Of a DNA stretch of 29,409 nt, positions 12,327 through 26,305 are shown piece by piece (within the stretch, counting starts at the first letter, position 1; each line of letters opens with the position of its first letter). The stretch is from a virus. A program made the translations under genes and the position numbers. Where the stretch lies: positions 1-29,409 of the IMG/VR virus record IMGVR_UViG_3300028548_003903; one strand, 5' to 3'. The notes under the pieces were generated by a model. That model was not told where the DNA came from. It made no database searches and saw only the letters and a list, made by a program, of their open reading frames with translations.

Positions 12327-12334
12327 TTTATCTC

Positions 12335-12979: not shown

Positions 12980-13914
12980 TGTGTTTCTCCTTTCTGAGAG
13001 TGCATCAATCGGGTGTAACTTGAACTTGACCGAATGAAATTTTCTATATGCTGGACATCTTCTGCAACGTCGTCGAGTAAAATTTGACGCCATGTAGCAA
13101 AACGGCCAAGCGAGTATATTCCGTATTTAGTTGTCATTTCGAAAATAAACTGCTTCCTGATCTCTTCATTGATAGGCTTTATCTTGCCAAGATACTGCTC
13201 TGAGGATTTCATGTCAACAAGTTTCTTAGGCTTAATGCCAAAGTCTTCTAGAAGTACATCCATCATATGGGGGCCAATATTGGCTTCTGGCTTCCTAATG
13301 AATTCAGATATAACAATATCACCAACTAAAGATATTCTGTAGTATGGGACTGTTGGGTCTGGGTAGTATATTGTTTGATGTACTTTACAGTCTGGGGAAT
13401 CAATGCGAGCCTTCTGCGTCCATATTTTCTGCGTGGGGAAGTCTGGCTTGTCTGGCCAGCCCATGATGTCCATCAGAGTCGGCATTGGGATAGTCGATAT
13501 TGTAGGCACAGATCCCATATCATCTACAGCTGTCTTCGTCAGCTTCATGTCATATTGTATTTTGCAATTCTTAGACATGGTGCTTATAAGCTCCCATGGA
13601 GCTATGTATCTGTCGACAGCATCTAAGCTGTTGATAGACCTGTTCAGTATTGAGCCTGTTACTTTCTGAGAATATAAATTGCTCAGGAACAAGTTTGTCT
13701 CGGTGTGGAGCTTGCCATTATACTTTATGGCCTTGTGCACTTTTACTTTTGCGAAGGGGATAGCACAAGCTGTGCCAACCTTGTCAGTCCTGAATCGGAG
13801 CAGAGCTCCTTGGTTGTTAGGCAGTTCACTTTGGGCTTCGTAAATTATTGGATCGAAGCTCCTCAACATATTCCCCGCTAACAGACCCGCAAGCCCTGCT
13901 CCATATATAATCAT
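12976..13914 (-). CDS. FAD-dependent oxidoreductase of the Rossmann/UGM-like type
   Basis: A 312-residue protein. The N-terminus MIIYGAGLAGLLAGNML is a dinucleotide-binding GxGxxG with the acid of beta2 at IYEAQ. The C-terminal part has YGIYSLGRFATWRQILLDDV, which matches the FAD-contacting end of amine-oxidase or UDP-galactopyranose mutase-type flavoproteins. The middle is a substrate domain of unknown specificity with several hydrophobic strands. Its stop overlaps the ThyX start (ATGA) and its start overlaps the upstream 56-residue gene (ATGA). Coupling to an FAD-dependent thymidylate synthase suggests a shared role in nucleotide or DNA-base chemistry, but the reaction is unknown. Confidence 0.8.
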   Translation of the reverse strand: MIIYGAGLAGLLAGNMLRSFDPIIYEAQSELPNNQGALLRFRTDKVGTACAIPFAKVKVHKAIKYNGKLHTETNLFLSNLYSQKVTGSILNRSINSLDAVDRYIAPWELISTMSKNCKIQYDMKLTKTAVDDMGSVPTISTIPMPTLMDIMGWPDKPDFPTQKIWTQKARIDSPDCKVHQTIYYPDPTVPYYRISLVGDIVISEFIRKPEANIGPHMMDVLLEDFGIKPKKLVDMKSSEQYLGKIKPINEEIRKQFIFEMTTKYGIYSLGRFATWRQILLDDVAEDVQHIENFIRSSSSYTRLMHSQKGETQ

Positions 13915-14081
13915 GCTTCCTCCCTCTCACGCATCTTGTTTAGCTTTCTGGTTGCTCTTATAGCGATTGACTTCGTTCTAGATGAAGGGTGACGATCTAG
14001 TTCATTCGGCCACATGCAAGCCTCGATTGCGATGAGCAAGAGACGTATCTCCTGCTCACTTAGTTTTACTTCAGCATTCAT
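13911..14081 (-). CDS. Small 56-residue helical protein, unknown function
   Basis: ATG 14081 lies inside the 3' end of the preceding gene (11-base overlap) and its TGA overlaps the FAD oxidoreductase start (ATGA). Residues 4-25 form an amphipathic helix (EVKLSEQEIRLLLIAIEACM) and the second half is basic (SRTKSIAIRATRKLNKMRER). The layout suggests a small DNA-binding or partner protein. No family recognised; support comes from composition and tight gene packing. Confidence 0.72.
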   Translation of the reverse strand: MNAEVKLSEQEIRLLLIAIEACMWPNELDRHPSSRTKSIAIRATRKLNKMREREEA

Positions 14082-14682
14082 CAATCAGCTCCACTCTTCC
14101 TTTTTTGATATCATGTGCGAGGTCTTCGCGGCAACCACCTTTTGTGCTACCATGCATTTCAGCCAGCTTAACGAACTCTTCATACTTGAGAGTTGCATTA
14201 GAGCCTAGGAACACATTGAAGTTTTTAAAGCCACGTGTGCCTTCCTTGCGAGGATTGTCATTGACGAGACACTTGATAATCTTGCCAGCAAAAGAACCAC
14301 GAGCCTTTTTAGGCTCTGCAGCTTTAGGAACATGTCCTTGTGGTGTTACAATATTCATTACTTTTGGAGAGATGCCAAGAGGTGTCATTCCTGGAATTGC
14401 AGCAACCTGTGGGGTTGGGACGGCACGGACATGAATGTCTGCAATCGCAGCCATGTATCGCTTTGCACCAGTTTTATTGTCAGAGAATTTCTTGACAGGA
14501 GCGTCGGACACTTCATTGTAAGCATCGACCAAAAGCCTTGTTGTTACATTACGGTCAGCCAAAAGCTCTCCAGCATTCGTAAAGAAGACAACGCCATTGC
14601 CCATCGAACGAGCAGCTTTGTCAGAGGCATAGCCTTTGACGACGAGGCTCTTCGGGTCGAGAGTGTAAGTTACAGTATTCAT
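14071..14682 (-). CDS. Conserved unknown protein at the head of the middle unit
   Basis: A 203-residue protein from ATG 14682, with AGAAAGGA eight bases upstream at the end of promoter cassette copy 3. The N-terminal 80 residues contain several beta-like segments (TYTLDPKSLVVKGYA, NGVVFFTNAGELL). A Pro/Ala-rich linker (residues about 85-130) leads to a C-terminal domain with FKNFNVFLGSNATLKYEEFVKL and a Gly/Cys-containing GCREDLAHDIKKGRVEL. The last part looks like a small DNA-binding fold. No family recognised. As first gene of the longest unit, it is likely made strongly. Confidence 0.65.
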   Translation of the reverse strand: MNTVTYTLDPKSLVVKGYASDKAARSMGNGVVFFTNAGELLADRNVTTRLLVDAYNEVSDAPVKKFSDNKTGAKRYMAAIADIHVRAVPTPQVAAIPGMTPLGISPKVMNIVTPQGHVPKAAEPKKARGSFAGKIIKCLVNDNPRKEGTRGFKNFNVFLGSNATLKYEEFVKLAEMHGSTKGGCREDLAHDIKKGRVELIDEC

Positions 14683-14710
14683 TTTGTATTCCTTTCTAAG
14701 TTGATAAGGG

Positions 14711-14739
14711 ATTCTATCTTTTATACACAGAGAAGTAAA
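14711..14739 (-). promoter_or_regulatory. Promoter cassette copy 3, driving the nucleotide/replication unit
   Basis: On the minus strand TTTACT (14739-14734), 17 bases, TAGAAT (14716-14711), then TTATCAACTTAGAAAGGA leading into the gene at 14682. AGTCATTG sits 30 bases upstream of the -35, directly after the end of the UvrD-like helicase gene. The unit downstream probably runs through the polymerase gene to 5909. Confidence 0.82.
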
Positions 14740-14775
14740 GCACTTTGTTTTTGTTTAAAACCAATGACTTGTAAA

Positions 14776-16239
14776 TTAGATGGAAAAGTATCTTAGGCCT
14801 CTTGGCTGTACAAGATACAAATTTTCCTTCGCTCTGGTCAATGCAACATACCATACTCTGTTCTCCTCGTCACTTCCTAAGTTGTCCCAACTCAGCTTGC
14901 CCATGTCAGTTACCAGCACAACATTGTCAGCCTCACCACCTTTGCTCTGGTGGATTGTAGAGATTGTTATTCTTGGCTTGTCGGTAAACTTCTCTCCATT
15001 ACGCATGCAAGACCTTAGATATTCCCGCTCATCTGCTGGGAGGCCTTTTAAGATATCCATCCAGTCCCTAGACCTAGCATCCTCAGGCAGTCCCAAATCA
15101 TTTATTCTATAGGTCTCTTTCTTTTCCAGCTTGATATTGAAGTTAAAGAAGTTGATTAGGTTCTTGGCTTCTGTCCTGTTGAGCTCTTTGCCTTTACGGA
15201 TCTTCTCCCATGAAGTTATTGCTTTGGTCTCATTGGTGTCTAAAGAACTTTGCCCATTGTAAGTGTATGCATATCCTTGCTGGCGGACAACCTTTTTAAT
15301 TCTCTGGAGGAGATATTTACTGCGAGCCATGCAAAGCCAAGTCCCATCATGGGATGAGAAGTCAATGGAGTCAGCTTCTGATATGTAGTTTACTGTGCCC
15401 ATATCTCTCTTGGGTTGCCATGGCTTAACATACCTATTCTTAATCCTCCCAACAACATCAGAAGCAAGCGCATGCACACTGCGAGGAATTCTGAAGCTCT
15501 GAGGGAGAATTCTTTTGTCACCTTTTAGGCTGAGGAACTTACTTATGTCTGCTCCTGCCCATGCAAAGATTGCTTGGTCGTCATCCCCAGCAATGTAAAC
15601 TTCTGAGGCCTCAGATGAAGCCATGATCGCCATTCTGTATTGCAGTGAGCTGAGGTCTTGTGCCTCGTCAACTATGCATATTTCTATTGGCAAAGAGCTC
15701 TGATATCTTTCTAGCATATCAGTGAAGTCCAGCAGACCATTTTGCCTTTTGTAAGTTGTAAGGGATTGGTGGTATTGCTTAACAGCGTGCAGAGTCAAGT
15801 CATTCTGGTTGGTTAATTGATATTGATCCTCCATTGAACGAATGCCAACTCTGGCTAGAGACTCAACTCTTGAACATTTATCCCCCAGACCATCCCCTGT
15901 ATGAATTCCTAGGTCTTCATCGTAAATGCCTTTGAACTCTACACCCAGAGCCTTGCCAAGCTTGCGATAGTGAACATTGGTCATTACCTCGTCTCTTTGC
16001 AATCCAAGCATTCTAAAGGCCAGCGAGTGGAGTGTGCGGAAATACGGGAAACGATCCGCATCGAAGCCAAACTGAACCATTGCCCGTTCTTGAGCTTCGC
16101 TTGCAGCTTTCCGAGTGAAGGCTAAATATGCGATGCGCTCTGGTGGCACACCTCTTTTTAAAGCATCCTCAACTATCTTCAGCAGAGTCGTTGTCTTGCC
16201 TGTTCCTGGAGGGCCCAGAATTATCTGCACGTGCCTCAC
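14776..16239 (-). CDS. UvrD/Rep-like superfamily 1A DNA helicase
   Basis: A 487-residue helicase if GTG 16239 is used. An in-frame ATG at 16257 contains the ribosome binding site AGAAAGGA within its own first codons, so the GTG is the better start. Motifs: Walker A GPPGTGKT (9-16), AFTRKAASEAQERA (Ia), VDEAQDLSSLQ (II), GDDDQAIFAWAGAD (III), LPQSFRIP (IV), ISTIHQSKGGEADNVVLVTD (V) and WYVALTRAKENLYLV (VI). The protein is shorter than UvrD (about 720), lacking most accessory-domain insertions. It unwinds DNA 3' to 5' and is probably the replicative or recombination helicase of the phage. The preceding zinc protein overlaps its 5' end by 71 bases. Confidence 0.93.
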   Translation of the reverse strand: MRHVQIILGPPGTGKTTTLLKIVEDALKRGVPPERIAYLAFTRKAASEAQERAMVQFGFDADRFPYFRTLHSLAFRMLGLQRDEVMTNVHYRKLGKALGVEFKGIYDEDLGIHTGDGLGDKCSRVESLARVGIRSMEDQYQLTNQNDLTLHAVKQYHQSLTTYKRQNGLLDFTDMLERYQSSLPIEICIVDEAQDLSSLQYRMAIMASSEASEVYIAGDDDQAIFAWAGADISKFLSLKGDKRILPQSFRIPRSVHALASDVVGRIKNRYVKPWQPKRDMGTVNYISEADSIDFSSHDGTWLCMARSKYLLQRIKKVVRQQGYAYTYNGQSSLDTNETKAITSWEKIRKGKELNRTEAKNLINFFNFNIKLEKKETYRINDLGLPEDARSRDWMDILKGLPADEREYLRSCMRNGEKFTDKPRITISTIHQSKGGEADNVVLVTDMGKLSWDNLGSDEENRVWYVALTRAKENLYLVQPRGLRYFSI

Positions 16240-16477
16240 TTTTATTTCCTTTCTCATTAAGATGATTTAACAAAACATCTTTGTACGTCTCTTGCTTATA
16301 CTTCCACAGGATCCATTCATAATATCTTTCTGGTTCTTTTTCGTTGACGCTGTCTTTCCACTCTGTTATGATTACGTTTTTACAGCTCCCACAAAGGACA
16401 TCTTTGTCTAATATCCTGCCATGGGTGTGCTCTCCGCAGAAGTCACAAGGCACTGTTTCTTTGTAATATGGTAACAT
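16169..16477 (-). CDS. Small zinc-binding protein between primase and helicase
   Basis: A 102-residue protein from ATG 16477, directly after the primase stop. CDFCGEHTHGRILDKDVLCGSC near the N-terminus is a four-cysteine zinc site. A helical part follows (ERYYEWILWKYKQETYKDVLLNHLNEK), and the last 25 residues are polar and are encoded in DNA that also encodes the helicase Walker A region in another frame, so that tail is probably not functionally important. Position suggests a replication accessory role. I recall similar short zinc proteins in marine phages without known function. Confidence 0.72.
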   Translation of the reverse strand: MLPYYKETVPCDFCGEHTHGRILDKDVLCGSCKNVIITEWKDSVNEKEPERYYEWILWKYKQETYKDVLLNHLNEKGNKSEARADNSGPSRNRQDNDSAEDS

Positions 16478-18007
16478 TTAAAAGTCCTCAGTCACTGCAC
16501 TAGGTATATCAAGTTGATCCTCGTCATCAAAGAATTCTGGCTCTGGCACAGACCAGACCTTCACAGGCTTAGACTTGATCCTGAAAGTTTTACGGTCACC
16601 ACCACTCGCTCTAAGCCAAGACCAGACTTGGTGCTGGGTGGTGTATCGGAACCTGCGAGCCTCTAAATAAATAAATAGGTCTTCAGACCGAAAGTAAACT
16701 TTGCCCTCATCAGAGTCGTGCCATGGCTTGCCATTCATTATCTCGTCTTTCTGACGAGCTTGAACTTTGCCTGTTAAGAAGCTGTCTAGCATTTTCTCGA
16801 ACTGGCCTTGTGGCGAAGCATCGTCTGGGTCTACAATGACCTCGACATTCTCCAGCAGTTGGTTTATCCGCTGTTCCCAAGCTTGGGATGGCATTGTGCT
16901 GGGACACTTGTTTAGCTTCTCAACACAGATCTTTTGCAGCTGTCGCTGGTCCAGCAGTTGGGGTGTTGTTACTTCTATCCGCTCACCTTGCATCTCGATG
17001 TACCAACGCACAGACTGGCGGTTCTCAGTTTCGTATTTTGTTATCGCATCGACCTCAATAGACAGGCCACCGCCAACTCTTCCGACTCCATAGTCTCGCT
17101 TCATGCATTTAGACTTCTCGCAATAATTGCAGATTGGACTTTGTTTGCATGTGTAGGCATATTCTTTTTTGCTGACTGACTTGACTAGGCCATTGACTTC
17201 ACCCATTGGCAGAGGCTCTGGCAGGTGCTCATAATTGAACTTCATTAAGTCTTCTTGCCAGTCGTCAGGATTGCGCTTGCGGAAATAAACACCAACATTG
17301 AACAGAGAAATGTTTCTTCCACCTTCTGGGAAGCCCATGGTCATGATGTGTTGCAAGCAGGGAGGCCCATCGCTAAAGTGATCAACTAAGTCTGGCTTGA
17401 AATTCTCTAGCTTTTCAAATGTTGTTAGCTTCTTTTCAGCAAGGTCAATGAATTGTTCTAGGTTAAGTTTCTTGCCTTTATGGATTGCATGACGCTCAGT
17501 CTTGTCGCCATCCCAATAACACAAGTTGATCCAGTTGCCTCGATCTCTTTCATTGGCTCTAGATATTTGCTTGGGGAAAACTTCTGATCCGCCATAGCCT
17601 AGTAATGCAGCGAATTCATTTAGCTTTGCGACCATGTCAATAGCAGGAATGGCAGGACTGCAAAAAAGATATAAATGAGCGCCACCAGACTTAGAACGGC
17701 ATAGCACCAAAGGAGTGTCACGAATCTTTTTCTCGAGACTTTCAAGGCTTTCATTTAATTTGACCTCACCTCTTATATCAATATCAATAACACCAAAGTG
17801 ACAGCTGTTGTCCTGTAACAACGGGATGACACCTAAAATATATTCGCCACCATTCAAGTGTTCTTTAAAATTATTTTCTGTTGCTGGTTCGCTAACAGTT
17901 ATTGCTCGGCCAGACATTTTTCCGTCGGCTTCTTTTTTGTTTACTCGATACTGTCCGTGGGCAAGCTCAAAGCCTCTGAACAGTTTCATAAATCTTTTTA
18001 CGTCCAT
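16478..18007 (-). CDS. Archaeo-eukaryotic-type (AEP/TOTE-like) DNA primase
   Basis: A 509-residue protein from ATG 18007, with AGAAAGGA upstream. The AEP core shows GVIDIDIRG (metal-binding DxD) and LCRSKSGGAHLYLF (the sxH motif), as in TOTE-type and related primases. A cysteine cluster (CKQSPICNYC, then KCMK) near residues 285-300 suggests a zinc site. The C-terminal 200 residues contain a winged-helix-like region (EDLFIYLEARRFRYTTQHQV) and an acidic tail (FFDDEDQLD). There is no helicase domain, so unwinding must come from the separate UvrD-like or SNF2-like genes. It would lay primers for the DnaE-like polymerase. Adjacent genes are the candidate ssDNA-binding protein and the helicase, giving one replication module. 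Confidence 0.88.
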   Translation of the reverse strand: MDVKRFMKLFRGFELAHGQYRVNKKEADGKMSGRAITVSEPATENNFKEHLNGGEYILGVIPLLQDNSCHFGVIDIDIRGEVKLNESLESLEKKIRDTPLVLCRSKSGGAHLYLFCSPAIPAIDMVAKLNEFAALLGYGGSEVFPKQISRANERDRGNWINLCYWDGDKTERHAIHKGKKLNLEQFIDLAEKKLTTFEKLENFKPDLVDHFSDGPPCLQHIMTMGFPEGGRNISLFNVGVYFRKRNPDDWQEDLMKFNYEHLPEPLPMGEVNGLVKSVSKKEYAYTCKQSPICNYCEKSKCMKRDYGVGRVGGGLSIEVDAITKYETENRQSVRWYIEMQGERIEVTTPQLLDQRQLQKICVEKLNKCPSTMPSQAWEQRINQLLENVEVIVDPDDASPQGQFEKMLDSFLTGKVQARQKDEIMNGKPWHDSDEGKVYFRSEDLFIYLEARRFRYTTQHQVWSWLRASGGDRKTFRIKSKPVKVWSVPEPEFFDDEDQLDIPSAVTEDF

Positions 18008-18029
18008 GCCTCTTCCTTTCTGATTGGTC

Positions 18030-18064
18030 GGGGGATAACTTCATTGGGACATGAGCTATCCCCC
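18030..18064. other. Strong stem-loop in the primase leader
   Basis: GGGGGATA (18030-18037) pairs perfectly with TATCCCCC (18057-18064). Inside, a CTTCAT/ATGAG pairing with one bulge lengthens the stem. It lies between the ssDNA-binding protein candidate and the primase start, just upstream of the ribosome binding site. No T-run follows on the minus strand, so it is not a normal terminator; attenuation, RNA processing or mRNA stability are possible roles. Confidence 0.65.
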
Positions 18065-18086
18065 TAAACAACGTAATGCAGGGTGG

Positions 18087-18881
18087 CTACATTACATCAT
18101 CATCAGAGGAGTCTGGTTGAACCTTGACTTCACCGTCACGAATGTTCTTGCGGAACTCTCGTGCTTCGAGATAGATGCTTTGGCCTTGGTCTAGGTTCTG
18201 AATGATCCCTCCAGACTTAGCATCGAACATCATCTCAACTTCCCAGTTGAACCACGAGCCCATATCGTTCTGCTCAGGTGTTGTGGTCAGGTTGTAGGCA
18301 GTCCAGAACATGGCTGGATTGAATGTGCCTTTGCCTGTTGGGTGAGCAACTTGTAGCCTGTTGATCATAGAGTTCCAACGCTTGGCTTTTTTAATGCCTG
18401 AAGAACTCATAGACAATATGGCAGGGGAAAATGTGCCGTCTTCACCAACAACATAAATAAAGTATTCTGCTGTCAATGATAGCTGGTTTCCGTCTGGTGT
18501 GCGCAATTTGCCTCGATCGTCTTGTACACACATTTCCATAATTGAAGGCTGTAGTCCGTGGTCTTTAACCAGCTTGCGCTCGTCAGTCCACTCGAGATAT
18601 GTCTTGCGATAGCTAACAGGAACAGCTGTTATTCCCTTTTCACCATCGAACAATTCACCCGTTACATTGTCCAAGATCTGTCCAGCCTCAGCACCTTTTA
18701 GATAGGCACCATCAGCTTTATTGACTTGGGGAGATTGAGCTTGTAAGATCTTGAGACGTGGGATGAGCATATCATCCGCTGTCATATTCTCACCTGCTGT
18801 GCCCGCATCTTCTAAAAGAATGGACGCATCAAATGCAATTACATTGCTCTCTTTTTTTACTTCTACTTCATTTTTAGCCAT
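18087..18881 (-). CDS. Candidate phage ssDNA-binding protein
   Basis: A 264-residue protein. ATG 18881 follows GGAGG by five bases; an earlier in-frame ATG (18953) is rejected. The core is beta-rich (ITAVPVSYRKTYLEWTDER, then YFIYVVGEDGTFSPAILSMS), with helix KKAKRWNSMINRL and a Trp/Phe-rich region (NPAMFWTAYNLTT, SWFNWEVEMMF). The C-terminus ends in an acidic tail (DSSDDDVM) as in SSB and T7 gp2.5. I recall this family next to primases in marine phages, often labelled ssDNA-binding. Gene order (before primase and helicase) fits coating of single strands in replication. Assignment rests on tail and context, not on a motif. Confidence 0.68.
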   Translation of the reverse strand: MAKNEVEVKKESNVIAFDASILLEDAGTAGENMTADDMLIPRLKILQAQSPQVNKADGAYLKGAEAGQILDNVTGELFDGEKGITAVPVSYRKTYLEWTDERKLVKDHGLQPSIMEMCVQDDRGKLRTPDGNQLSLTAEYFIYVVGEDGTFSPAILSMSSSGIKKAKRWNSMINRLQVAHPTGKGTFNPAMFWTAYNLTTTPEQNDMGSWFNWEVEMMFDAKSGGIIQNLDQGQSIYLEAREFRKNIRDGEVKVQPDSSDDDVM

Positions 18882-19470
18882 GGTATCCTCCTGTGATTTT
18901 GGCTTTACGACCTGTGAATAACTTAAACAGATCATGGGGAACATCCTTGCCATCAGTCAATCGCTCTTTGATAAAAGAGTTAAGTGACCCATGGTGGACG
19001 CCGACTGCACGTTTGTAAAAGAGATTTCTTTCACGCAACTCATCCGCAAAGTCATTGCATGCTTTGTCTTCATCTCTTCCGAACTGAACCTCAACATTGC
19101 TTTTAATTAAGTCACCAGCATTATTAGCTCGCAACCAATCGAAGCATTGTTGTTGACGCACTTCTAGTTCAGACCTGTCATCTCCTCTTGCTTTCATAAT
19201 AGCAGAAGCAGATGGAATAGAACCAGAAGTTATATCTTGAACCTCAACCTTACCACCATTGGTAAGAGTAAAGTCCTTGACGTTCAATTCTTGCATTAAG
19301 TCAGGCAAGTCATGTTCAGCCAACTTCGTCAGGTTCTGCTTTTTTTGCTTCAACAGCTCATTCAAATCATTTATCTCTTTTTCAAGATCAAACATTTGTT
19401 GAGCCATATCAGCCACTGCACCTATTGAGTTGGACGCAGGTGCCACGTCCTCAAGCAGATTGATATTCAT
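18874..19470 (-). CDS. Conserved phage protein upstream of the ssDNA-binding candidate
   Basis: A 198-residue protein from ATG 19470. An N-terminal coiled coil (MFDLEKEINDLNELLKQKKQ region, about residues 25-55) is followed by a small beta part (FTLTNGGKVEVQD) and a helical C-terminal domain (CFDWLRANNAGDLIKSNVEV, then VHHGSLNSFIKERLTDG, then LFKLFTGRKAKI). I recognise the pattern as a widely shared phage protein of unknown function that often lies beside replication genes. Overlap of 8 bases with the next gene suggests a shared role with it, perhaps as a DNA-replication accessory. Confidence 0.75.
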   Translation of the reverse strand: MNINLLEDVAPASNSIGAVADMAQQMFDLEKEINDLNELLKQKKQNLTKLAEHDLPDLMQELNVKDFTLTNGGKVEVQDITSGSIPSASAIMKARGDDRSELEVRQQQCFDWLRANNAGDLIKSNVEVQFGRDEDKACNDFADELRERNLFYKRAVGVHHGSLNSFIKERLTDGKDVPHDLFKLFTGRKAKITGGYHG

Positions 19471-19471
19471 C

Positions 19472-19840
19472 TTAATTTATTTCCTTTCTCATTTCTAAAG
19501 CGACAGGCATGTACCAGCCTTTGCGCCTGTCACGGTCTCCTTCTTCCATGTTACGTTCCCATCTAAGGACACGCACCACTGGTGACATTTCAGCTGCGAT
19601 CATACACGCTATCATAACAGCTATGGGGTCACCACCTCCTGGCCACAAAAGATAATCTTCCGTGGAGAAGTCTTTCATAATCTTACGAGCTTTTTGGATC
19701 GATGGACTAGGTAAAAACTGAGGCTTTTCATTAGGCTCAAATACAATTTCAAGCGAACCATAACGAGCAGCATCAGTCAGATCTGGAGTCCAACCGAACT
19801 TGTTCTCTCGTGGTCTTGTTACCACATAAACTTTTGACAT
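19472..19840 (-). CDS. Conserved phage protein, unknown function
   Basis: A 122-residue protein from ATG 19840, with AGAAAGGA upstream. The layout is KVYVVTRP at the start, then DLTDAARYGSLEIVF, a helix, DYLLWPGGGDPIAVMIACMIAAE, and VVRVLRWERNME. I recall similar proteins (start strand, GDP segment, LRWDR strand) across phages of marine bacteria and Proteobacteria, always unassigned. The central GGGDP with flanking helix hints at a nucleotide or phosphate-binding loop, but this is weak. It begins the unit that leads to primase and helicase; the ribosome binding site of the next gene lies within its last codons. Confidence 0.72.
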   Translation of the reverse strand: MSKVYVVTRPRENKFGWTPDLTDAARYGSLEIVFEPNEKPQFLPSPSIQKARKIMKDFSTEDYLLWPGGGDPIAVMIACMIAAEMSPVVRVLRWERNMEEGDRDRRKGWYMPVALEMRKEIN

Positions 19841-19867
19841 TCATTATCCTTTCTCAACGTGAAATAA

Positions 19868-19896
19868 ACTTTAACCTGTTTTCAATAGGAAGAAAA
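19868..19896 (-). promoter_or_regulatory. Weak relative of the promoter cassette upstream of 19840
   Basis: On the minus strand TTTTCT (19896-19891), a 17-base spacer and TAAAGT (19873-19868), followed at the same distance by GAGAAAGGA. Spacing from -35 to ribosome binding site equals that of the strong cassette copies, but the boxes and the TATCAAC leader are degenerate. It may be a decayed or weak copy. Confidence 0.4.
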
Positions 19897-19904
19897 GTTT
19901 TATT

Positions 19905-20195
19905 TTAATCAGCGATATCCTTGTCCAATATCGGTATTGGTCTGAGCATCCTGTCGTATGATACTCTTTCTTGCACCCACAAGCCATCTATCTTCTTGTC
20001 CAGAGCCTTTTGTTCTTCTTCAAGGCTGGGGGAATTGTCACAACTCTTTGCTCTCACTCTCCTCATTACAACTTCTTCGGTTCTAAAACACGCATTGCAA
20101 ACTGGGCATTTGCGAAGCCGAAAGCTGACGCCTTGTCTGGTGACTCCTGAGTTCGTTACTCTGGTTGTTTTCTGATCGCAGTCTATACACCGCAT
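19905..20195 (-). CDS. NrdR-like zinc-ribbon protein (possible transcription regulator)
   Basis: A 96-residue protein from ATG 20195, first gene on the left arm. MRCIDCDQKTTRVTNSGVTR and then RKCPVCNACFRTEEVV form a four-cysteine ribbon whose spacing and RTEE ending closely match the N-terminal zinc ribbon of NrdR, the repressor of ribonucleotide reductase genes. The ATP-cone domain of NrdR is missing; the rest is a charged helix and a polar tail. It might bind DNA at its own upstream region, which holds a palindrome and many repeated motifs, or be an Ogr-type activator. That is inference from position. Confidence 0.7.
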   Translation of the reverse strand: MRCIDCDQKTTRVTNSGVTRQGVSFRLRKCPVCNACFRTEEVVMRRVRAKSCDNSPSLEEEQKALDKKIDGLWVQERVSYDRMLRPIPILDKDIAD

Positions 20196-20224
20196 CTATA
20201 ATCCTTTCTCAATATTAGAATTAG

Positions 20225-20253
20225 AGTTTAAATTCTAGAATTCTAAAAGTAAA
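20225..20253 (-). promoter_or_regulatory. Leftward promoter with an internal palindrome (operator candidate)
   Basis: On the minus strand TTTACT (20253-20248), 17 bases, TAAACT (20230-20225), then GAGAAAGGA before the gene at 20195. The spacer is occupied by a perfect 12-bp palindrome, AATTCTAGAATT (20231-20242). A second inverted repeat, TTAGAATT (20215-20222) and AATTCTAA (20239-20246), brackets the -10. A protein bound here would block the promoter, so regulation is likely. Confidence 0.6.
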
Positions 20254-20263
20254 CATTTTTCTT

Positions 20264-20543
20264 GCGTTACCGAACTTTTCAATATAGACCAAGCCAGTAA
20301 CCAAAGAACCAGCGTTACCGAACTTGATTTGTTTTGGGGGACGTCCTATGGTTTACAAAACTATATAGGGGAAAAAATTTTGAGGTGAAAAATAATTCTT
20401 TAAAATTAGTGAAAGTCTGGAAACACTGGTAACGAAAGACGATTACTCTATACATTACAGAGGGTTGCGAGCGTTACCTAACAGGAAAAATGATGGTAAC
20501 CGAAACCACACACTGGTAACTTCCTTTCATAAAACATGTAACC
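20264..20543. repeat. Cluster of GTTACC/GGTAAC motifs in the divergent region (iteron or operator array)
   Basis: The 430 bases between the two arms (20196-20625) contain no gene. They hold two exact copies of GCGTTACCGAACTT (20264-20277 and 20312-20325, 48 bases apart) and further GTTACC or GGTAAC forms near 20297 (partial), 20428, 20473, 20495, 20515 and 20538 (partial), in both orientations. Between the two groups lies AT-rich DNA (about 20365-20410) that could melt easily. This pattern fits a replication origin with initiator-binding iterons, or a multi-site operator controlling both arms. Confidence 0.7.
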
Positions 20544-20569
20544 TATTGTTTTATCGTGTTTCTTTTCTC

Positions 20570-20598
20570 TTTACTTGTCTGCTAATAAAAGATAGAGT
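20570..20598 (+). promoter_or_regulatory. Promoter cassette copy 4, rightward
   Basis: On the plus strand TTTACT (20570-20575), 17 bases, TAGAGT (20593-20598), then TTATCAACTTAGAAAGGA before ATG 20626. It is nearly identical to the leftward copy at 5848-5876. The upstream box here reads ACCTATTGTTT instead of AGTCATTGGTTT and overlaps the last of the GTAACC motifs. Confidence 0.82.
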
Positions 20599-20625
20599 TC
20601 CTTATCAACTTAGAAAGGAATTAAA

Positions 20626-20886
20626 ATGACACTTACAGAGAATCAAACTGCCGCAATGACCGCCCTGATTAAATCTTGCTTGGAGAACATGGGTGGAGCA
20701 GACTTAGCAGAATTACAATGTGATCCATTTGTTTGGGTTGACGCATCTGATCTTGTAGATGCTGGTTGGGGACAAAAAGAAGCCGAAGGAACATTTGGAT
20801 CGCTGGTTGCCGAAGGTTTAATTTACATGGATGACGGCTTCGCTTTAACGCAAAACTGGGATGAGCTTCGCAAGTTCCACGCCTAA
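20626..20886 (+). CDS. Small acidic protein, unknown, first gene of the right arm
   Basis: An 86-residue protein from ATG 20626, with AGAAAGGA seven bases upstream. Helix TENQTAAMTALIKSCLENMG is followed by VWVDASDLVDAG, KEAEGTFGSLVAEGLI and YMDDGFALTQ, a helix/helix/beta-hairpin order like a small winged-helix domain, although the protein is acidic and so an unlikely direct DNA binder. Driven by a strong promoter next to the origin candidate, it is probably an early takeover protein. No family recognised. Confidence 0.72.
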   Translation: MTLTENQTAAMTALIKSCLENMGGADLAELQCDPFVWVDASDLVDAGWGQKEAEGTFGSLVAEGLIYMDDGFALTQNWDELRKFHA

Positions 20887-20894
20887 TCAATCAG

Positions 20895-20910
20895 GGGAGC
20901 TTCGGCTCCC
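20895..20910 (+). other. UUCG-tetraloop hairpin between two small genes
   Basis: GGGAGC, TTCG, GCTCCC: a 6-bp GC-rich stem closed by a very stable C(UUCG)G loop, starting eight bases after the stop of the first right-arm gene and ahead of the next ribosome binding site. The tail is TTCCATCCCC, not a T-run, so strong termination is unlikely. It may protect the upstream mRNA or reduce read-through. Confidence 0.55.
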
Positions 20911-20938
20911 TTCCATCCCCTCTGAGAAAGGAACTATA

Positions 20939-21265
20939 ATGACACACTCCATCGAATGGCTTACTTCGGATGTTGCTGCATATGAGCGTTACAAAAGGCT
21001 CGCAGGTGACGATGAGGTTGCTCTTTTCAATTGCATTGCTAGACATCAATATGTTATTCATGTTGAGCTCAATTCTAATTTCGAAGACCCAAAGAGGTTT
21101 GTAGAGATAGATGCTGATGGTCTGTCTCATGCGCTGGTTCTCCTCAAGCAATGGCTGATGGTTCACGGTGCGACGAGTGCAGGATTAAGGAAAGTTGATA
21201 GTGGAGCTTTTCTCGGCTCCCCCGACATTTACGACTGTTCAGATTTCATGGAGGAAGACCGATGA
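20939..21265 (+). CDS. Small protein, unknown function
   Basis: A 108-residue protein; ATG 20939 follows AGAAAGGA, and an earlier in-frame ATG (20861) is inside the upstream gene and rejected. It starts MTHSIEWLTSDVAAYERYKR, has a beta-like YVIHVELNS and RFVEIDADG, and a central helix SHALVLLKQWLMV. It is acidic overall. The end overlaps the next gene (ATGA). No family recognised; operon position suggests an early phage protein acting on the host or on regulation. Confidence 0.7.
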   Translation: MTHSIEWLTSDVAAYERYKRLAGDDEVALFNCIARHQYVIHVELNSNFEDPKRFVEIDADGLSHALVLLKQWLMVHGATSAGLRKVDSGAFLGSPDIYDCSDFMEEDR

Positions 21266-21459
21266 GTGGCGCGACAGCAGCAGACTTTAATAAGTGGGAA
21301 GGCATTGCTAAAAAATGCGACATCACTGAGCTGAACTTTATCATAAAGGATTGTCGTGAAGCTCAGTCGGCAATGCAAGGCTGGAACCCTGAGAAAGAAA
21401 ACTATTACTCCGACCAGAGGATGACGTTCTCGGATGAGTTGCGCAGGAGGTTCAAGTGA
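21262..21459 (+). CDS. Small helical protein, unknown function
   Basis: A 65-residue protein from ATG 21262, overlapping the previous stop (ATGA). It reads as two helices (DFNKWEGIAKKCDITELNFI and IIKDCREAQSAMQGW) and a charged end (TFSDELRRRFK). Two cysteines are present but no zinc motif. The stop shares one base with the next ATG (TGATG). Function unknown; support is packing and composition. Confidence 0.68.
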   Translation: MSGATAADFNKWEGIAKKCDITELNFIIKDCREAQSAMQGWNPEKENYYSDQRMTFSDELRRRFK

Positions 21460-21623
21460 TGTGGGCAACTGAAGTCATTGAAACTGGCGTTGGCATTCTC
21501 TTTGTAAAGGAACACAACGCCATGAGGTATTCTGAAGCCATGAACATGCACAACTATTACATGATGAAGTATGCTGGGAAATACTCAACTTACTTCGTTT
21601 GGAGGGATTGCAATGATCTCTAA
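21459..21623 (+). CDS. Small 54-residue protein, unknown function
   Basis: ATG 21459 shares a base with the previous TGA and has GGAGG nine bases upstream. The product starts MWATEVIETGVGILFVKEHN, with a beta-like opening, then a Met- and Tyr-rich helix (SEAMNMHNYYMMKYAG) and YFVWRDCNDL at the end. It overlaps the following membrane protein gene by 11 bases. No family recognised. Confidence 0.65.
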   Translation: MWATEVIETGVGILFVKEHNAMRYSEAMNMHNYYMMKYAGKYSTYFVWRDCNDL

Positions 21624-21786
21624 TTTCTTTAACATGGTGCTGGCGGTTACTCTTGTCCTTGCGTCATCTGCAATGGTGTCTTTTATTCTTATCAATATTT
21701 TATTGGGCTGTGACAACTGGGATCAAGAGCAATGGACGCAATACAAGTCTTGTATGACAATCGGTTATATAATAGGACTTGACTGA
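21613..21786 (+). CDS. Small single-span membrane protein
   Basis: A 57-residue protein; ATG 21613 follows GGAGG at seven bases, and an upstream in-frame ATG (21571) is rejected as it lies within the previous gene. Residues about 6-33 are a continuous hydrophobic segment (MVLAVTLVLASSAMVSFILI), followed by an outer or periplasmic acidic tail (DNWDQEQWTQ) and a second short hydrophobic end (CMTIGYIIGL). Last gene before the terminator at 21839. A membrane protein made early could act in superinfection exclusion; this is speculation. Confidence 0.7.
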   Translation: MISNFFNMVLAVTLVLASSAMVSFILINILLGCDNWDQEQWTQYKSCMTIGYIIGLD

Positions 21787-21838
21787 TTGCCCAGAAAAGC
21801 CTATCATCAAGATATTATCCCTGCCTCTACCTGACTAA

Positions 21839-21873
21839 AAGCTCACTGTAAAAAGTGGGCTTTCTTTTTCTTC
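21839..21873 (+). terminator. Intrinsic terminator closing the right-arm early operon
   Basis: AAGCTCACT, loop GTAAAA, AGTGGGCTT: a 9-bp stem with one G-T pair, directly followed by TCTTTTTCTTC. Both the stem and T-rich tail fit a rho-independent terminator for the genes 20626-21786. It separates the early operon from the packaging genes, which therefore need their own promoter; I could not identify one with confidence in 21874-21938. Confidence 0.85.
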
Positions 21874-21938
21874 TAGATTATATTACAGTTGCTTCACAGT
21901 TGACCACTGCAAACAAAGGTTCTGAAGGAGATAATCTG

Positions 21939-22478
21939 GTGTCAGGAAAAGGAAAAAAGGTTCAAGTCCAAAGGCCTATTAACAATGGTCGCAAAGTTGA
22001 GCCTGAGAAGTGGGATGGCAGCTTTAAATCTGTAGAACCTCTCAAGAACCAGAAGCCAGCCCAACACCGCCAAGCCAGACATAAGAAGTGGAACCATCCA
22101 GCCACAATCAATTGGATTATGGGGCAAGCTGACCCTGTTGGATTCCTCGCTTCGGTTATGCAAGGCAAGGAAATGTTTCCCGTTTACACTCAAGACCAAG
22201 ATGGCACAGTCCAGAACATCGGAAAGGTTGGTGCCGATCCAGAGCTGAGAGTTATGGCTGCAAAGACATTGCTCGGCAAATGCGTCCCTGATCTAAAGGC
22301 TGTTGAGATAACAGCACAAATTGAAGAGCGAAAGGTGCTTGATATAAGCAGATTAACTGATAATGACCTCACCACAATTGAACGAGTTCTTGAACACGCT
22401 GTCATTGAAGGAAGTGAGAGCGGAGAAGATGAGGAGATCTTTGAGGGAGTTCACCAAGAGCTCTTGGCAAGCGATTGA
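21939..22478 (+). CDS. Probable terminase small subunit
   Basis: A 180-residue protein if GTG 21939 is used; GGAG lies about eight bases upstream, and the frame before it runs back through the terminator region. The N-terminus is basic and polar. The C-terminal half has a helix (DPELRVMAAKTLLGKCVPDL) and KVLDISRLTDNDLTTIERVL, then an acidic end (SESGEDEEIFEGVHQE). Assignment as TerS rests on position directly before, and overlapping, the large subunit, and on a recalled likeness to marine-phage TerS proteins; no diagnostic motif is visible. TerS recognises phage DNA and feeds it to the large subunit. Confidence 0.65.
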   Translation: MSGKGKKVQVQRPINNGRKVEPEKWDGSFKSVEPLKNQKPAQHRQARHKKWNHPATINWIMGQADPVGFLASVMQGKEMFPVYTQDQDGTVQNIGKVGADPELRVMAAKTLLGKCVPDLKAVEITAQIEERKVLDISRLTDNDLTTIERVLEHAVIEGSESGEDEEIFEGVHQELLASD

Positions 22479-23871
22479 ACCAGGACGACCTTTTCAAGAC
22501 AACTGGCACATAGACGCAATATCAGACCATCTTCAAGCAGTTGTTGAGGGTGATATAAAGCGATTGATTATCAATGTCCCTCCAAGGCATATGAAATCTA
22601 TTTCGGTTGCTGTGGCCTTGCCTGCATGGGCGTGGACTATCCAGCCAACTAAACAATTCTTGTATGCGTCTTATGCAGGGTCTCTTTCTATTCGTGACTC
22701 GGTTAAGTGTCGGAGGCTGATTGACAGTCGTTGGTATCAGAATCACTTCGGAGAGACATTCAAGCTGACAGGTGACCAGAACCAGAAGCAAAGATTCGAG
22801 AATGACAAGACAGGCTATCGGATAGCAACTTCGGTTGGTGGTGCTTTGACAGGGGATGGTGGTGACATCGTTGTAATTGATGACCCACACAATTCAATTG
22901 AGGCCGACAGCTCTGCAGTGCGTGAAGGAGTTCTTGAGTGGTGGGATCAGTCTATGCAGACTCGTCTGAACAATCCCAAGACAGGTGCATTCATTATCAT
23001 TATGCAGAGGCTGCATGAGCAAGACTTAACAGGACACATCCTATCTAATGAGCTTGGGGATGAGTGGGATCACCTAATGCTCCCAGCCAGATATGAGATT
23101 GGCCATCCTACTCCGATGCGTTCCAGCCTAAACTTCACAGACCCAAGAACAAAAGAGGGTGAGTTGCTTTGGCCAGATCGGATTGACGAAGGCACACTGA
23201 CAACCCTTGAAAGGTCTCTCGGCAGTTATGCTTCCGCTGGACAACTACAACAGCGACCAATGCCCAAAGGTGGTGGTATCTTAAAAGCTGAGTGGTGGGT
23301 GCCGTGGGACAAGCATGAGTTGCCAGACATTGAATATGTCTTGCAGAGTTGGGACACAGCCTTCAGCACCAAAGAGAAATCATCTTATTCGGCTCGGACA
23401 ACTTGGGGTGTCTTTAAGATGAATGGCCAGATAAATGCGATGGTCTTAGAGATGTGGTTTGATCGTGTTAGCTATCCTGAGCTGAGAAAGCTCGCACAAG
23501 AGGCCTATAATGATTGGGAGCCAGATGCGGTTCTCATCGAGAAGAAGGCTTCTGGCCAGTCTTTGTTGCAAGATTTACGCATGGCAGGTGTCCCAGTTCT
23601 TGAGTATATGCCTGACCGAGACAAGCAAGCTCGTGCTCATGCAAGCTCTGCTCTTTTGGAAGACGGAAGAATTTTCTTTCCATCTGACAAGAAGTGGGCT
23701 AAAGATTTAATTGATATCTGTGCAGCCTTCCCTGCAACCGACAATGATGACATTGTTGACACATGTACACAGGCATGGTTAAGGCTTCGCAAAGGCTGGT
23801 TCGTTACACACTCGAATGATTTTGACGAAGATGATTATGAGGAAAGAAGAAGGATAACATTGTATGGCTAG
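22363..23871 (+). CDS. Terminase large subunit
   Basis: A 502-residue packaging motor. ATPase: VPPRHMKSISVAVALPAWAW (Walker A variant PPRHMKS), DIVVIDDPHN (Walker B, with catalytic acid), IIMQRLHEQDLTG (coupling motif). Nuclease (RNase H-like): LQSWDTAFS (first Asp), VLIEKKASGQSLLQDL and NDDIVDTCTQAW (third acid). It cuts and pumps DNA into the procapsid. The chosen ATG 22363 overlaps the small-subunit gene by 116 bases and has a poor ribosome binding site; ATG 22429, with GGAG upstream, would lose 22 residues. The extra N-terminus looks like a natural terminase start, so I keep the longer form. The end overlaps the portal gene by 8 bases. Confidence 0.95.
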   Translation: MTSPQLNEFLNTLSLKEVRAEKMRRSLREFTKSSWQAIEPGRPFQDNWHIDAISDHLQAVVEGDIKRLIINVPPRHMKSISVAVALPAWAWTIQPTKQFLYASYAGSLSIRDSVKCRRLIDSRWYQNHFGETFKLTGDQNQKQRFENDKTGYRIATSVGGALTGDGGDIVVIDDPHNSIEADSSAVREGVLEWWDQSMQTRLNNPKTGAFIIIMQRLHEQDLTGHILSNELGDEWDHLMLPARYEIGHPTPMRSSLNFTDPRTKEGELLWPDRIDEGTLTTLERSLGSYASAGQLQQRPMPKGGGILKAEWWVPWDKHELPDIEYVLQSWDTAFSTKEKSSYSARTTWGVFKMNGQINAMVLEMWFDRVSYPELRKLAQEAYNDWEPDAVLIEKKASGQSLLQDLRMAGVPVLEYMPDRDKQARAHASSALLEDGRIFFPSDKKWAKDLIDICAAFPATDNDDIVDTCTQAWLRLRKGWFVTHSNDFDEDDYEERRRITLYG

Positions 23872-26305
23872 AGAACCAGTTGTGATTCAACAACCATTGG
23901 CTCCCTTTGCGGAGACTGCTCCTGCGGACGATCTGCAAGTTGAAGAGATCGGCGATGATGTTCTCATAGGAGACCCAGAGCTAGACAATATTGAAGAGGA
24001 AGACACGAACTTCGGTGCCAACTTGGCAGAGGAAATGTCTGATAAAGAGCTTACCAAAGCAGCCTCCTCTCTAGTTACATATTACAATAATGACCGTGAA
24101 GCTCGATCCGAGTGGGAAGAGCGTTACAAAAAAGGCCTGAAGACTCTTGACCCAGATGGTGGCATGGAAGAGTCAGAAGACGAGCGTGCGACTCGTGGCC
24201 TGAGCGTTGTCGTTCATCCAATGATCGCAGAGGCTGCAACCCAGTTCAACGCTAAAGCTATTGCAGAGCTATATCCTAGTGGTGGCCCCATTAAGACAGT
24301 TATTGTCGGTGATCCGAATGAGGAGCTTGAAGAGCAAGCACGCAGAGTTCGGGAATACATGAACTACCAGATCACGCAGGAGATGCCAGAGTATTTCCCT
24401 GACCTTGATCAAATGTTATTCCATCTCCCGTTAGTTGGCCAGACATTCAAGAAGGTGTGGTGGGACACTAACATGGATCGTCAGTGCAGCCAGTTCGTTA
24501 AGGCTGAAGACTTCGTTGTCGCACCAGAGAGCAAAGACTTATACACATCGCCACGTTACACCCACATCATCCGTATCCCAAAAAACGATTACAACCGATA
24601 TGTGCAGTCTGGCTATTATCTTCAGACCGACGATAAAGGTGGCGACATTGATCCTTCGGGAGATACCATTGGCGAGATCGAGGGTGTTGATCAATATGGC
24701 GATGACTCGCAGGATCAGGTAATGACTCTGCTGGAGATGCATGTCTATGACAACTTCGAAGAAGACACAGACGACGACGATGATAATGCAGTCGGCATAC
24801 CTTATGTTGTAACAGTTGATTATGATAATGAGAAAGTTGTAAGCATTCGCCGCAACTGGCGAGAAGATGACGAGCGCAAGATCCGCAGGGATTGGTTCGT
24901 GTCTTATAAATTTCTTCCTGGATTGGGCTTTTATGGCTTTGGATTATATCATCTTATTGGTGGATTGGGTAAAGCGGCAACTGGATCCTTACGAGCTTTG
25001 CTTGACAGTGCAGCCTTTAGCAATATGCAAGGTGGCTTTAAGTTAAGAGGCAGAGTCTCAGGTGGAGAGGTTCAAGTAAATCCAGGAGAGTTTGTCGATC
25101 TAGACGCAACTGTTGACGATGTCAATAAAGCAATTATGCCACTGCCATTTAAAGAGCCAAGCCAATCTTTGTTTAATCTGCTTGGCTTTATTGTTCAGGC
25201 GGGACAGCGTTTTGCTAGCACTGCTGATTTGAATGTTGGGGATGTGAATCCAAATGCGCCTGTTGGCTCTACAGTGGCGTTGATCGAGCAAGGAAGCAAG
25301 GCCTTCTCGGCAATCCATAAGAGGCTGCATTATGCTCAGGGACAGGAGTTTAAGCTCCTCGCAGACTTGAATGCTGAAAACTTGCCTGAACAGTTTACAT
25401 TTTCGTTGATAGGAAGCAGTTCTGAGATATTCGCTGCTGACTTTAATGATCGCATTGATATCCTCCCAGTTAGTGACCCCAACATATTCAGCTCATCCCA
25501 GCGCATTGCTCAGGCCCAAGCTATTTTGCAGATGGCCCAGTCAGCTCCTGAGATGCACGATATGTACGCAGCATACAAGAGAATGTATGAGGCGATTAGA
25601 ATACCAAACATTGACGAGATACTAAAGAAGCCTGAAGACGCACCGCGCATGGATCCGATTGACGAGAACATGGCGATAATGTATGGCAAGCCTATAAGAG
25701 CATTCATTGAACAAGAACATGAATCGCACATAGCAGTTCACATGCAGTTTATTAAAGATCCATCTCTTGGAGGCAATCCAGGAGCCGCAGCAATGCAGCC
25801 TATTCTCATTGCCCACATAGCAGAACACGTTGCGTTACTTTACAGAACTCGCATGGAGGCCAGCGTTGGCGTTCCACTTCCCCCAGTTCCAAACTTCGCT
25901 GATAAAGACTTTAAGTTTGAGGACATCAATCCAGACCTTGACAGGCTCATTAGCCAGCGTGCTGCGCAAGTTGTTCAAGAAGCTCCGCAGATGAAAGCAA
26001 TTACTGCTATCCAGCCAGAGGGCCAAGGCCAACAACAGAACCCATTGCAATATGCACAACAACTCGCTCAACTCGAAGCTGAAGCACTCAAACTTAGGAC
26101 GCAAGCCCAAATCGCTACAGACCAAGCTAAAGCACAGTCCTCAATGGAAATTAAAAAGGCTGAAGCTCAGCAAAAAATGCAAATAGATGCAGCCAAGGCT
26201 CAAGCAGACTTGCAATCTAAAGTGATGAAGCTAGAGGCTGAGTTGCAATTAGAGCGAGAGAAGAGTGCGGCTAAAATGCAAATCGAGGCTATGAAAAATG
26301 GATGA
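23864..26305 (+). CDS. Portal protein, P22-like, with long coiled-coil tail
   Basis: An 813-residue protein. After an acidic N-terminus (residues 1-60), the core shows features of P22-type portals: SVVVHPMIAEAATQFNAKAI, FHLPLVGQTFKKVWWD, VKAEDFVVAP, WFVSYKFLPGLGFYGFGLYH, ALLDSAAFSNMQGGFKLRG and NAPVGSTVALIEQGSKAFSA. The last 110 residues form a long Ala/Gln/Lys/Glu-rich coiled coil (from about residue 700), which in P22 corresponds to the barrel; a barrel here would extend into the capsid. A dodecameric portal forms the channel for DNA. It overlaps the terminase gene by 8 bases and the next small gene by 8. Confidence 0.9.
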   Translation: MAREPVVIQQPLAPFAETAPADDLQVEEIGDDVLIGDPELDNIEEEDTNFGANLAEEMSDKELTKAASSLVTYYNNDREARSEWEERYKKGLKTLDPDGGMEESEDERATRGLSVVVHPMIAEAATQFNAKAIAELYPSGGPIKTVIVGDPNEELEEQARRVREYMNYQITQEMPEYFPDLDQMLFHLPLVGQTFKKVWWDTNMDRQCSQFVKAEDFVVAPESKDLYTSPRYTHIIRIPKNDYNRYVQSGYYLQTDDKGGDIDPSGDTIGEIEGVDQYGDDSQDQVMTLLEMHVYDNFEEDTDDDDDNAVGIPYVVTVDYDNEKVVSIRRNWREDDERKIRRDWFVSYKFLPGLGFYGFGLYHLIGGLGKAATGSLRALLDSAAFSNMQGGFKLRGRVSGGEVQVNPGEFVDLDATVDDVNKAIMPLPFKEPSQSLFNLLGFIVQAGQRFASTADLNVGDVNPNAPVGSTVALIEQGSKAFSAIHKRLHYAQGQEFKLLADLNAENLPEQFTFSLIGSSSEIFAADFNDRIDILPVSDPNIFSSSQRIAQAQAILQMAQSAPEMHDMYAAYKRMYEAIRIPNIDEILKKPEDAPRMDPIDENMAIMYGKPIRAFIEQEHESHIAVHMQFIKDPSLGGNPGAAAMQPILIAHIAEHVALLYRTRMEASVGVPLPPVPNFADKDFKFEDINPDLDRLISQRAAQVVQEAPQMKAITAIQPEGQGQQQNPLQYAQQLAQLEAEALKLRTQAQIATDQAKAQSSMEIKKAEAQQKMQIDAAKAQADLQSKVMKLEAELQLEREKSAAKMQIEAMKNG

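Follow-up and report, generated by a model that had tools for sequence, protein, structure and literature searches.

Five small genes (p1-p5) lie where the leftward replication and metabolism arm and the rightward packaging arm of this viral DNA diverge, and the question that they raise is what a locus encoding proteins of no named family does for the virus that carries it. The window, by which we mean the whole stretch of DNA analysed, is a 29,409-base virus record; end repeats were absent, and it is therefore probably a fragment of a genome. Its terminase large subunit showed 80-82% identity with those of the Roseobacter phages CRP-901 and CRP-902 and at most 41.1% identity with the other 38 records among the matches listed. 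The source virus was probably a marine tailed phage infecting Roseobacter. As a separate observation and a weak host hint, a Rhodobacteraceae MAG (L161, L168-L170) was found to hold contigs of a related phage, with terL pieces 81-84% identical. The leftward arm encodes DNA polymerase III alpha, a separate exonuclease, a TOTE-type primase domain, a Pam3 gp34-like protein and ThyX, and Pam3 gp32-like and gp33-like proteins adjoin the locus on that side. The positions in the window were as follows.

5909-8719 and 16478-18007: polymerase and primase regions (phage-encoded DNA polymerase III alpha subunit with a PHP domain; TOTE-type primase domain)
8778-9329: separate exonuclease
20626-20886, plus strand: p1, open reading frame of 86 residues, occupant of the swap slot
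20939-21265, plus strand: p2, open reading frame of 108 residues
21262-21459, plus strand: p3, open reading frame of 65 residues
21459-21623, plus strand: p4, open reading frame of 54 residues
21613-21786, plus strand: p5, open reading frame of 57 residues from the ATG at 21613

The preliminary description had proposed five small genes in a row, of 54-108 residues, and the analysis bore this out. On the plus strand, open frames covered 0.98 of positions 20600-21786, against 0.62 on the minus strand and a maximum of 0.76 in 500 dinucleotide shuffles, and a Shine-Dalgarno-like sequence preceded all five starts. Purifying selection was seen on four of the proteins: p1 (dS 0.56, dN 0.066, compared with L006), p2 (dS 0.66, dN 0.135, with L014), p3 (dS 0.59, dN 0.076, with L013), and p5 (dS 1.08, dN 0.256, with L014); substitutions in p4 relative to its relatives were too few for a dN/dS judgement. 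From the frame coverage, the ribosome sites, and dN values well below dS (p4 excepted), p1-p5 are therefore real genes, p4 being the least sure. That their proteins lack a family also held: comparison with Pfam, PHROGs, NCBIfam, and PADLOC gave no accepted match, the weak rows lying at E 0.025 or worse (in part of these searches the p5 query began at 21616, one codon after its ATG), and none to a known anti-defence, defence or exclusion family in the same libraries. Profile searches of solved-structure sequences with p1, p2, and p3 returned nothing convincing (best E 0.63, 0.17, and 0.0082, respectively, the last being a short stretch of a ribosomal protein), and the only two Rfam matches were both far below threshold. 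The one membrane protein that had been proposed is p5, with a single hydrophobic segment.

The signals around the operon were located at the following positions.

20196-20625, no strand: intergenic gap from the leftward arm to the operon, with six GGTAAC/GTTACC sites at 20266-20520
20570-20598, plus strand: promoter TTTACT-N17-TAGAGT, its TTTACT-N17 form being at the same place in 10 of 22 loci
20610-20620, plus strand: leader and ribosome site TTAGAAAGGAA, bounding the swap slot on the left (the match to L177 breaks off at 20624)
20893-20912, plus strand: stem-loop after p1 with a TTCG loop and lacking a T run, bounding the swap slot on the right (the match to L177 restarts at 20894)
21838-21873, plus strand: intrinsic terminator that parts the operon from terS, made up of a stem-loop (21838-21863) and a T-rich tail, from a scan and from relatives

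A strong promoter belonging to the operon had been claimed. Directly before the leader, 10 of the 22 loci had TTTACT-N17 followed by a TANANT-, CATAAT- or GATAAT-like box, and several of the other 12 had poorer hexamers with the same spacing (for example, TTGCCT-N17-GATACT in L032 and L038). By this comparison with relatives, and as part of a repeated module, the promoter is real. Its supposed strength was not supported, because the window copy has 8 of 12 consensus matches, with TAGAGT as a weak -10 box, and was missed by a consensus scan, which gave six promoter-like sites in the region against 5.0 expected, a chance level. The ribosome-site motif TKAGAAAGGAW occurred in 11 copies in the window, against 0.17 expected. 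The terminator was upheld: the stem-loop at 21838-21863 was among the sites found by a scan that expects 1.9 by chance, and in 14 of 15 chosen loci the stretch separating the locus from terS again contained a stem-loop with a T-rich tail, the stem sequences differing (L026 was ambiguous, its stretch beginning inside the stem-loop). Because of the conserved promoter and the recurring terminator, the p1-p5 locus is probably a transcription unit of its own.

When the promoter-leader was compared with the window by BLAST, one further copy matched it at 97.6% over 42 bases and another at 94.6% over 37 bases, together with a weaker third. A pattern built from the four copies gave four exact matches in the window and none in 100 shuffles, a count that restates the BLAST result, since the pattern was built from those copies.

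20570-20609, plus strand: promoter-leader copy of the operon (BLAST and pattern)
14700-14739, minus strand: promoter-leader copy upstream of a 203-residue gene (14071-14682)
5837-5876, minus strand: promoter-leader copy in the leftward arm, second swap socket (5.8 kb)
5692-5820, minus strand: 42-residue gene at the 5.8-kb socket, in place of which L182 and L189 have a 63-residue gene
4621-4660, minus strand: promoter-leader copy upstream of a 232-residue gene (3905-4603) with DUF6011 at its end

The structural arm of the window held no copy when up to three mismatches were allowed. Since the other three copies all lie in the replication and metabolism arm, the operon is probably of the early or middle class, co-expressed with that arm rather than late. 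The early expression assumed by the preliminary description thus received indirect support, from the three sister promoters and from the terminator that parts the operon from terS, the evidence being promoter sequence and position. The operon had also been said to start at an origin candidate. The gap upstream of it does hold six of the 11 GGTAAC/GTTACC sites in the window and is the minimum of the cumulative GC skew, although divergent transcription alone could give that minimum. The same gap had five to seven such sites in L002, L013, L014, L021, and L025 and zero to three in 17 further loci; in L030 and L032, GGGAAC-type sites in a similar arrangement were recognised by eye. This shift from GGTAAC to GGGAAC suggests a binding protein whose specificity may have changed along with its sites.

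Between the Pam3 gp32-like gene and terS, the interval in relatives was 1183-2968 bases long among the intervals listed and showed 22 gene layouts in the 29 contigs that held both flanks. In the comparison with L014, DNA identity was 78-96% in the leftward flank (17600-19799), fell to 26% at 20600-20799 (62% gaps) and 22% at 21400-21599 (76% gaps), and returned to 82-94% from 22000 on. By tblastn, p3 was found in 28 of the 29 interval contigs, p5 in 10, p2 in seven, and p1 and p4 in one each. Several of the 29 contigs were near-copies of one another, and the share of p3 is inflated because 24 of the 29 had been fetched through p3 itself; among nine loci fetched otherwise with sequence reaching terS, it was present in five (L002, L013, where gene calling had missed it and tblastn found it, L014, L150, and L181) and absent from L153, L186, L192, and L193. 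By these counts, p3 is the most shared gene of the locus without being universal, p2 and p5 are intermediate, and p1 and p4 accessory. The five genes do not form a fixed unit. On the leftward side, the small protein encoded by 19905-20195, with an NrdR-like zinc-ribbon start below the Pfam cut-off, was 51-54% identical in L013, L014, L021, and L025, where the neighbouring gp32-like protein was 90-98% identical. The fast-changing region reaches into the leftward arm.

The first gene of the operon occupies a swap slot. In the window and 23 contigs (L002, L003, L013, L014, L021, L023, L025, L051, L052, L055, L069, L149, of which L187 is the same contig, L150, L152, L153, L174, L175, L177, L181, L186, L190, L192, and L193), the promoter was followed by one of nine gene families or by none: p1, families of 128, 147, 63, 41, 80, 108, and 52 residues, and a 120/186-residue family, whose 186-residue form was grouped with the 120-residue form from the interval layout analysis. 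Compared with one another, the slot families (186-residue form left out) showed no similarity at E 0.001. In L025 and L181 the slot was empty, p2 following the promoter directly. In 18 of 23 loci, the 40 nt following the first-slot gene or p1 contained a stem-loop of -10 kcal/mol or better (L153 is counted among the other five, though a stem-loop is present past its true gene end), against averages of -2.7 to -5.9 in random 40-nt stretches, of which the best of 40 reached -8.1 to -16.3. For L051 and L059, the gene ends used in this count lay 3 nt too far downstream. A stem-loop after the gene at the 5.8-kb socket was also seen by eye.

Near-identical phages differed at these places by whole genes. 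The contig 3300028925_005534, of which L174, L182, and L183 are pieces, showed 99.3-99.7% identity with the window over 2317-20632; its piece L174 had a 128-residue gene in the place of p1, behind a letter-identical promoter-leader, and reached the contig end after 42 residues of that gene. L177, from metagenome 3300006190, was 99.2% identical over 11997-20632 and had the whole 128-residue gene in the p1 place; its identity with the window stopped at 20624 and returned at 20894, within the stem-loop, to continue to the contig end at 20967. L002, from the same metagenome as L174, had p1. L003 was 99.9% identical over 20528-21460 and 99.3% over 21614-25003, only the p4 stretch being missing, inside the contig. 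Since L174 ends within the 128-residue gene and L177 about 80 bases past it, the cleanest exchange is found at the 5.8-kb socket and not in the operon. There, L182 had a 63-residue gene for the 42-residue gene of the window inside one contig, with flanks of 99.6-99.7% identity. The identity was unbroken from the promoter up to and including the start codon (59 nt) and came back 3 nt before the stop codon of the window gene, with one mismatch in the next 500 nt and four in the 900 nt upstream of the promoter. L189, from metagenome 3300025276, also had the 63-residue gene at this socket, with flanks of 99.3% and 98.6%. The 63-residue family occupied the right-arm slot in L021, and the 147-residue family occupied that slot in L013 and, in L184, L185, and L191, the 5.8-kb socket next to the polymerase gene. 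Gene families thus appear, from their distribution, to move between the right-arm slot and the 5.8-kb socket.

Taken together, these comparisons suggest that the operon serves as a cargo locus, early or early/middle in its timing, with a plug-in first slot, and forms a diversity hotspot for conflict between phage and host or between phages, to which we assign a probability of roughly two in three. The host RNA polymerase would begin at the sigma-70-like promoter at 20570-20598, shared with the three sites of the replication and metabolism arm, and would halt at the terminator ahead of terS. The slot is bounded on its left by promoter, leader, and ribosome site and on its right by stem-loop, ribosome site, and p2. 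These edges stay constant in close relatives, while the open reading frame that they enclose is replaced whole by unrelated small genes, probably by homologous recombination across the shared flanks. At least one other promoter-leader copy, that at 5.8 kb, behaves alike, with families travelling between both. The slot genes would most likely counter host defences or alter host processes with strain-specific effect; p3 would perhaps be a service gene of the locus, and p5 would sit in the inner membrane, with a periplasmic tail closed by a disulfide bond, and possibly exclude other phages. Host takeover, anti-defence or exclusion had been put forward in the preliminary description, and what speaks for them is evidence from populations, namely first-gene exchange, loss of p4, and turnover between conserved flanks, and not a match to a known family. 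We further propose, tentatively and at somewhat less than even odds, a socket system not described so far, in a lineage of marine phages, in which near-identical promoter-leaders at at least two places would serve as docking sites for exchange of whole open reading frames from start to stop codon, also between the sites, so that dosage and timing are fixed while conflict proteins are rotated.

Whole-gene exchange at a fixed promoter between near-identical genomes is the pattern that diversifying conflict would be expected to produce, but turnover of small genes can also come from weak selection. The genes might accordingly be ordinary accessory genes, gained and lost by chance and often exchanged with no part in conflict. 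Such a reading would fit the lack of a family for p1-p5 and for ten further interval genes, which had no Pfam match at cut-off and no PHROG match better than E 0.024, and would fit the occurrence of p1 relatives in 66 viral loci, with varied surroundings of unrelated phages in the seven loci inspected. The dN values well below dS in p1, p2, p3, and p5 argue against it, as does the exchange of whole frames at a fixed promoter, seen at two sites and in several metagenomes between genomes that are 99% identical, and we consider it unlikely.

We regard as more doubtful the possibility that assembly joined co-occurring phages into chimeras, which would account for the swaps, and that the locus is an ordinary early operon. 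In L004, L010 (1-1120), and L079 (1-2600), a left arm unlike that of the window meets, at the slot or close to it, a right part that is near-identical to the window; these three may be recombinants or assembly chimeras, and were left out of the proof for that reason. Their divergent left arms, the neighbouring numbers of the metagenomes, and the end of L174 within the swapped gene would all be explained by chimeras. However, the exchange of the 42-residue for the 63-residue gene lies inside one contig, with 99.6-99.7% identity on both sides, and recurs in L189 from another metagenome; the loss of p4 is likewise internal to its contig, and more distant relatives have different first genes behind the same promoter.

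The hydrophobic segment of p5 had a 19-residue mean of 2.53 at residues 9-27 and was followed by a short tail with two invariant cysteines, C33 and C47. Weak relatives (E 0.02 and 0.06) were found in the Rhodobacter phages RcRudolph and RcSimone-Hastad; they keep the C-x13-C tail and a WDRE-x-WT-x-x-x-SC motif and likewise have small genes as neighbours, with a primase/polymerase gene a few genes away. In some other interval contigs, the place of p5 is taken by a different small membrane protein that has the same two cysteines. The small size of p5, its single helix, its two cysteines, and, in the window copy, LLGC near a lipobox could point to a lysis component, antiholin-like or an Rz1-like lipoprotein, and to an operon that is partly a lysis unit. 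A lipobox requires G, A or S before the cysteine, and N precedes the first cysteine in both Rhodobacter phage relatives; the lipoprotein reading was dropped because of this, and a lysis role is very improbable. Superinfection exclusion proteins of the inner membrane combine a membrane anchor with a periplasmic part; what bears on this in p5 is the one hydrophobic segment and the two invariant cysteines, and a role in exclusion is possible.

The AlphaFold model of p1 (pLDDT 91.1, pTM 0.82) was a winged helix. Foldseek gave no match with E below 0.001 (best E 0.037), most of the top rows being winged-helix proteins, and the best VIA match had a Z of 7.9 and an rmsd of 2.2 over 72 aligned residues, a level that, by the tool's own warning, may reflect a common arrangement only. 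p1 is thus a predicted winged helix-turn-helix protein at the level of the fold. A charge of the DNA-binding type is common among such proteins and not defining; p1, in contrast, is acidic (pI 4.05, net charge -11), and since this charge disfavours DNA binding, p1 more likely binds protein. That p1 is instead a DNA-binding regulator of the divergent promoter region, the operon mainly controlling the switch between replication and packaging genes, is the least probable reading of all, the predicted winged helix and the repeated GGTAAC sites just upstream being outweighed by this net charge, by the GGTAAC-rich gaps of L013, L014, L021, and L025 with no p1 in the interval, and by L177, which swaps p1 for an unrelated gene and retains the neighbouring GGTAAC sites. 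A relationship to the activation domain of T4 MotA was rejected, its Foldseek E of 0.1 not standing above those of other winged helices. As an exchangeable slot gene, p1 was also found elsewhere: L005 matches the window at 91.7% over 20610-20932, a stretch bounded by two successive ribosome-site motifs, and the 55-kb contig 3300047352_000276 carries p1 far from its interval (L087, L038), behind a promoter that resembles, by eye, that of the interval of the same contig. In the Synechococcus phage Ssp-JY38 (L164, 3827-4543), a p1-like domain was seen within a 238-residue protein.

Structure prediction covered p1 and p2. The p2 protein is acidic (pI 4.78) with a predicted alpha+beta fold (pLDDT 81), for which comparison with PDB folds gave nothing convincing (best Foldseek E 0.1); a Foldseek match to an unnamed viral protein (E 0.0029) was uninformative, and a photosystem I chain with the best VIA Z, 5.1, but an rmsd of 5.3, was rejected as a relative. 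In p3, 19 columns were invariant among 26 sequences, including GWNP, KENYY, and D51, and a homologue is present in the Synechococcus phage S-SRM01. A further p3 homologue was noticed in the cyanophage S-2L (L162, 6001-6180; record 5346-5525), where no gene is annotated. p4 was found only in near-identical phages.

Two known kinds of locus invite comparison. T4-type phages are said to carry PeSL (promoter early stem-loop) cassettes, reportedly the subject of work by Arbiol et al. in 2010 and Comeau et al. in 2014. A PeSL is one composite intergenic element of promoter and stem-loop. According to PMC4503421 and PMC3950731, these elements act as shuffling points for genes in T4, and the authors of PMC4503421 judged them an unlikely cause of gene gain in cyanophage S-PM2. 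Like them, the present locus has an early-type promoter that is repeated (four copies), stem-loops, and small genes shuffled among related phages. Unlike them, it has the promoter 5' and the stem-loop 3' of the exchanged gene, the element after p1 carrying a ribosome site and no promoter copy; its four copies lie within 29 kb, and exchange runs from start codon to stop codon in 99%-identical genomes. As to a T4-like background, the terminase of the window is closest to those of CRP-901 and CRP-902, and the other matches all lay below 60% identity. The hotspots of P2 and P4, small (1-5 kb) loci of high turnover between conserved genes, are a tested precedent (PMC9122126). The present locus is similar to them in being a high-turnover stretch of about 1.2-3.0 kb, from the Pam3 gp32-like gene to terS. 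Theirs are recognised and tested anti-phage systems of temperate elements, whereas here there are only small proteins of no family, and PADLOC recognised no anti-phage system among the five window proteins. By analogy, the locus would work like both and be a member of neither, since it lacks one feature of each.

In archaeal viruses, anti-defence genes can be located by the conserved regulatory sequence that precedes small early genes (PMC11065993). The likeness lies in that arrangement; the differences are a bacterial phage, a sigma-70-like promoter, and, here, a reading from sequence alone. CRP-901 and CRP-902 (PMC10149686) resemble the window in the terminase large subunit, and differ in having a bifunctional primase-polymerase where the window has DNA polymerase III alpha and a TOTE-type primase domain. 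At the far end of its record, CRP-902 has a run of small genes of no assigned function; were the genome circularly permuted, this run would come ahead of the terminase genes. tblastn with p1, p2, p3, and p5 found no match in CRP-901 or CRP-902. No prior description of the p1-p5 locus was found in one open-access library, a limited negative, the CRP-901/CRP-902 paper having been covered in part.

The small early genes of phages are for the most part unnamed and offer no handle for choosing candidates to test. Near-identical genomes that differ by one whole gene behind one promoter come close to a controlled natural experiment, and because of these single-gene differences the occupants of the slot become candidates: p1 and the families of 128, 63, 147, 42, 41, 80, 108, and 52 residues can be ranked as possible anti-defence, host-takeover, and exclusion proteins of marine phages. 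Since unrelated genes take the place of the entire first gene in viruses that are otherwise almost identical, the swap slot is likely a store of tools against hosts or rival viruses, and the promoter sequence would be a search key for further genes of this kind.

Two minor features of the window were also noted. Directly before terS, at 21897-21909, lies a dyad, CAGTTGACCACTG, which is a candidate packaging or late control site; it was exact in four of five relatives compared and had one mismatch in the fifth, and it occurred once in the window, where 0.67 occurrences are expected with two mismatches allowed. In the leftward arm, the protein encoded by 11569-12054 was just over the Pfam cut-off for pyrimidine dimer DNA glycosylase, and a 173-residue protein that looked related to it by eye was present in the interval of L059.
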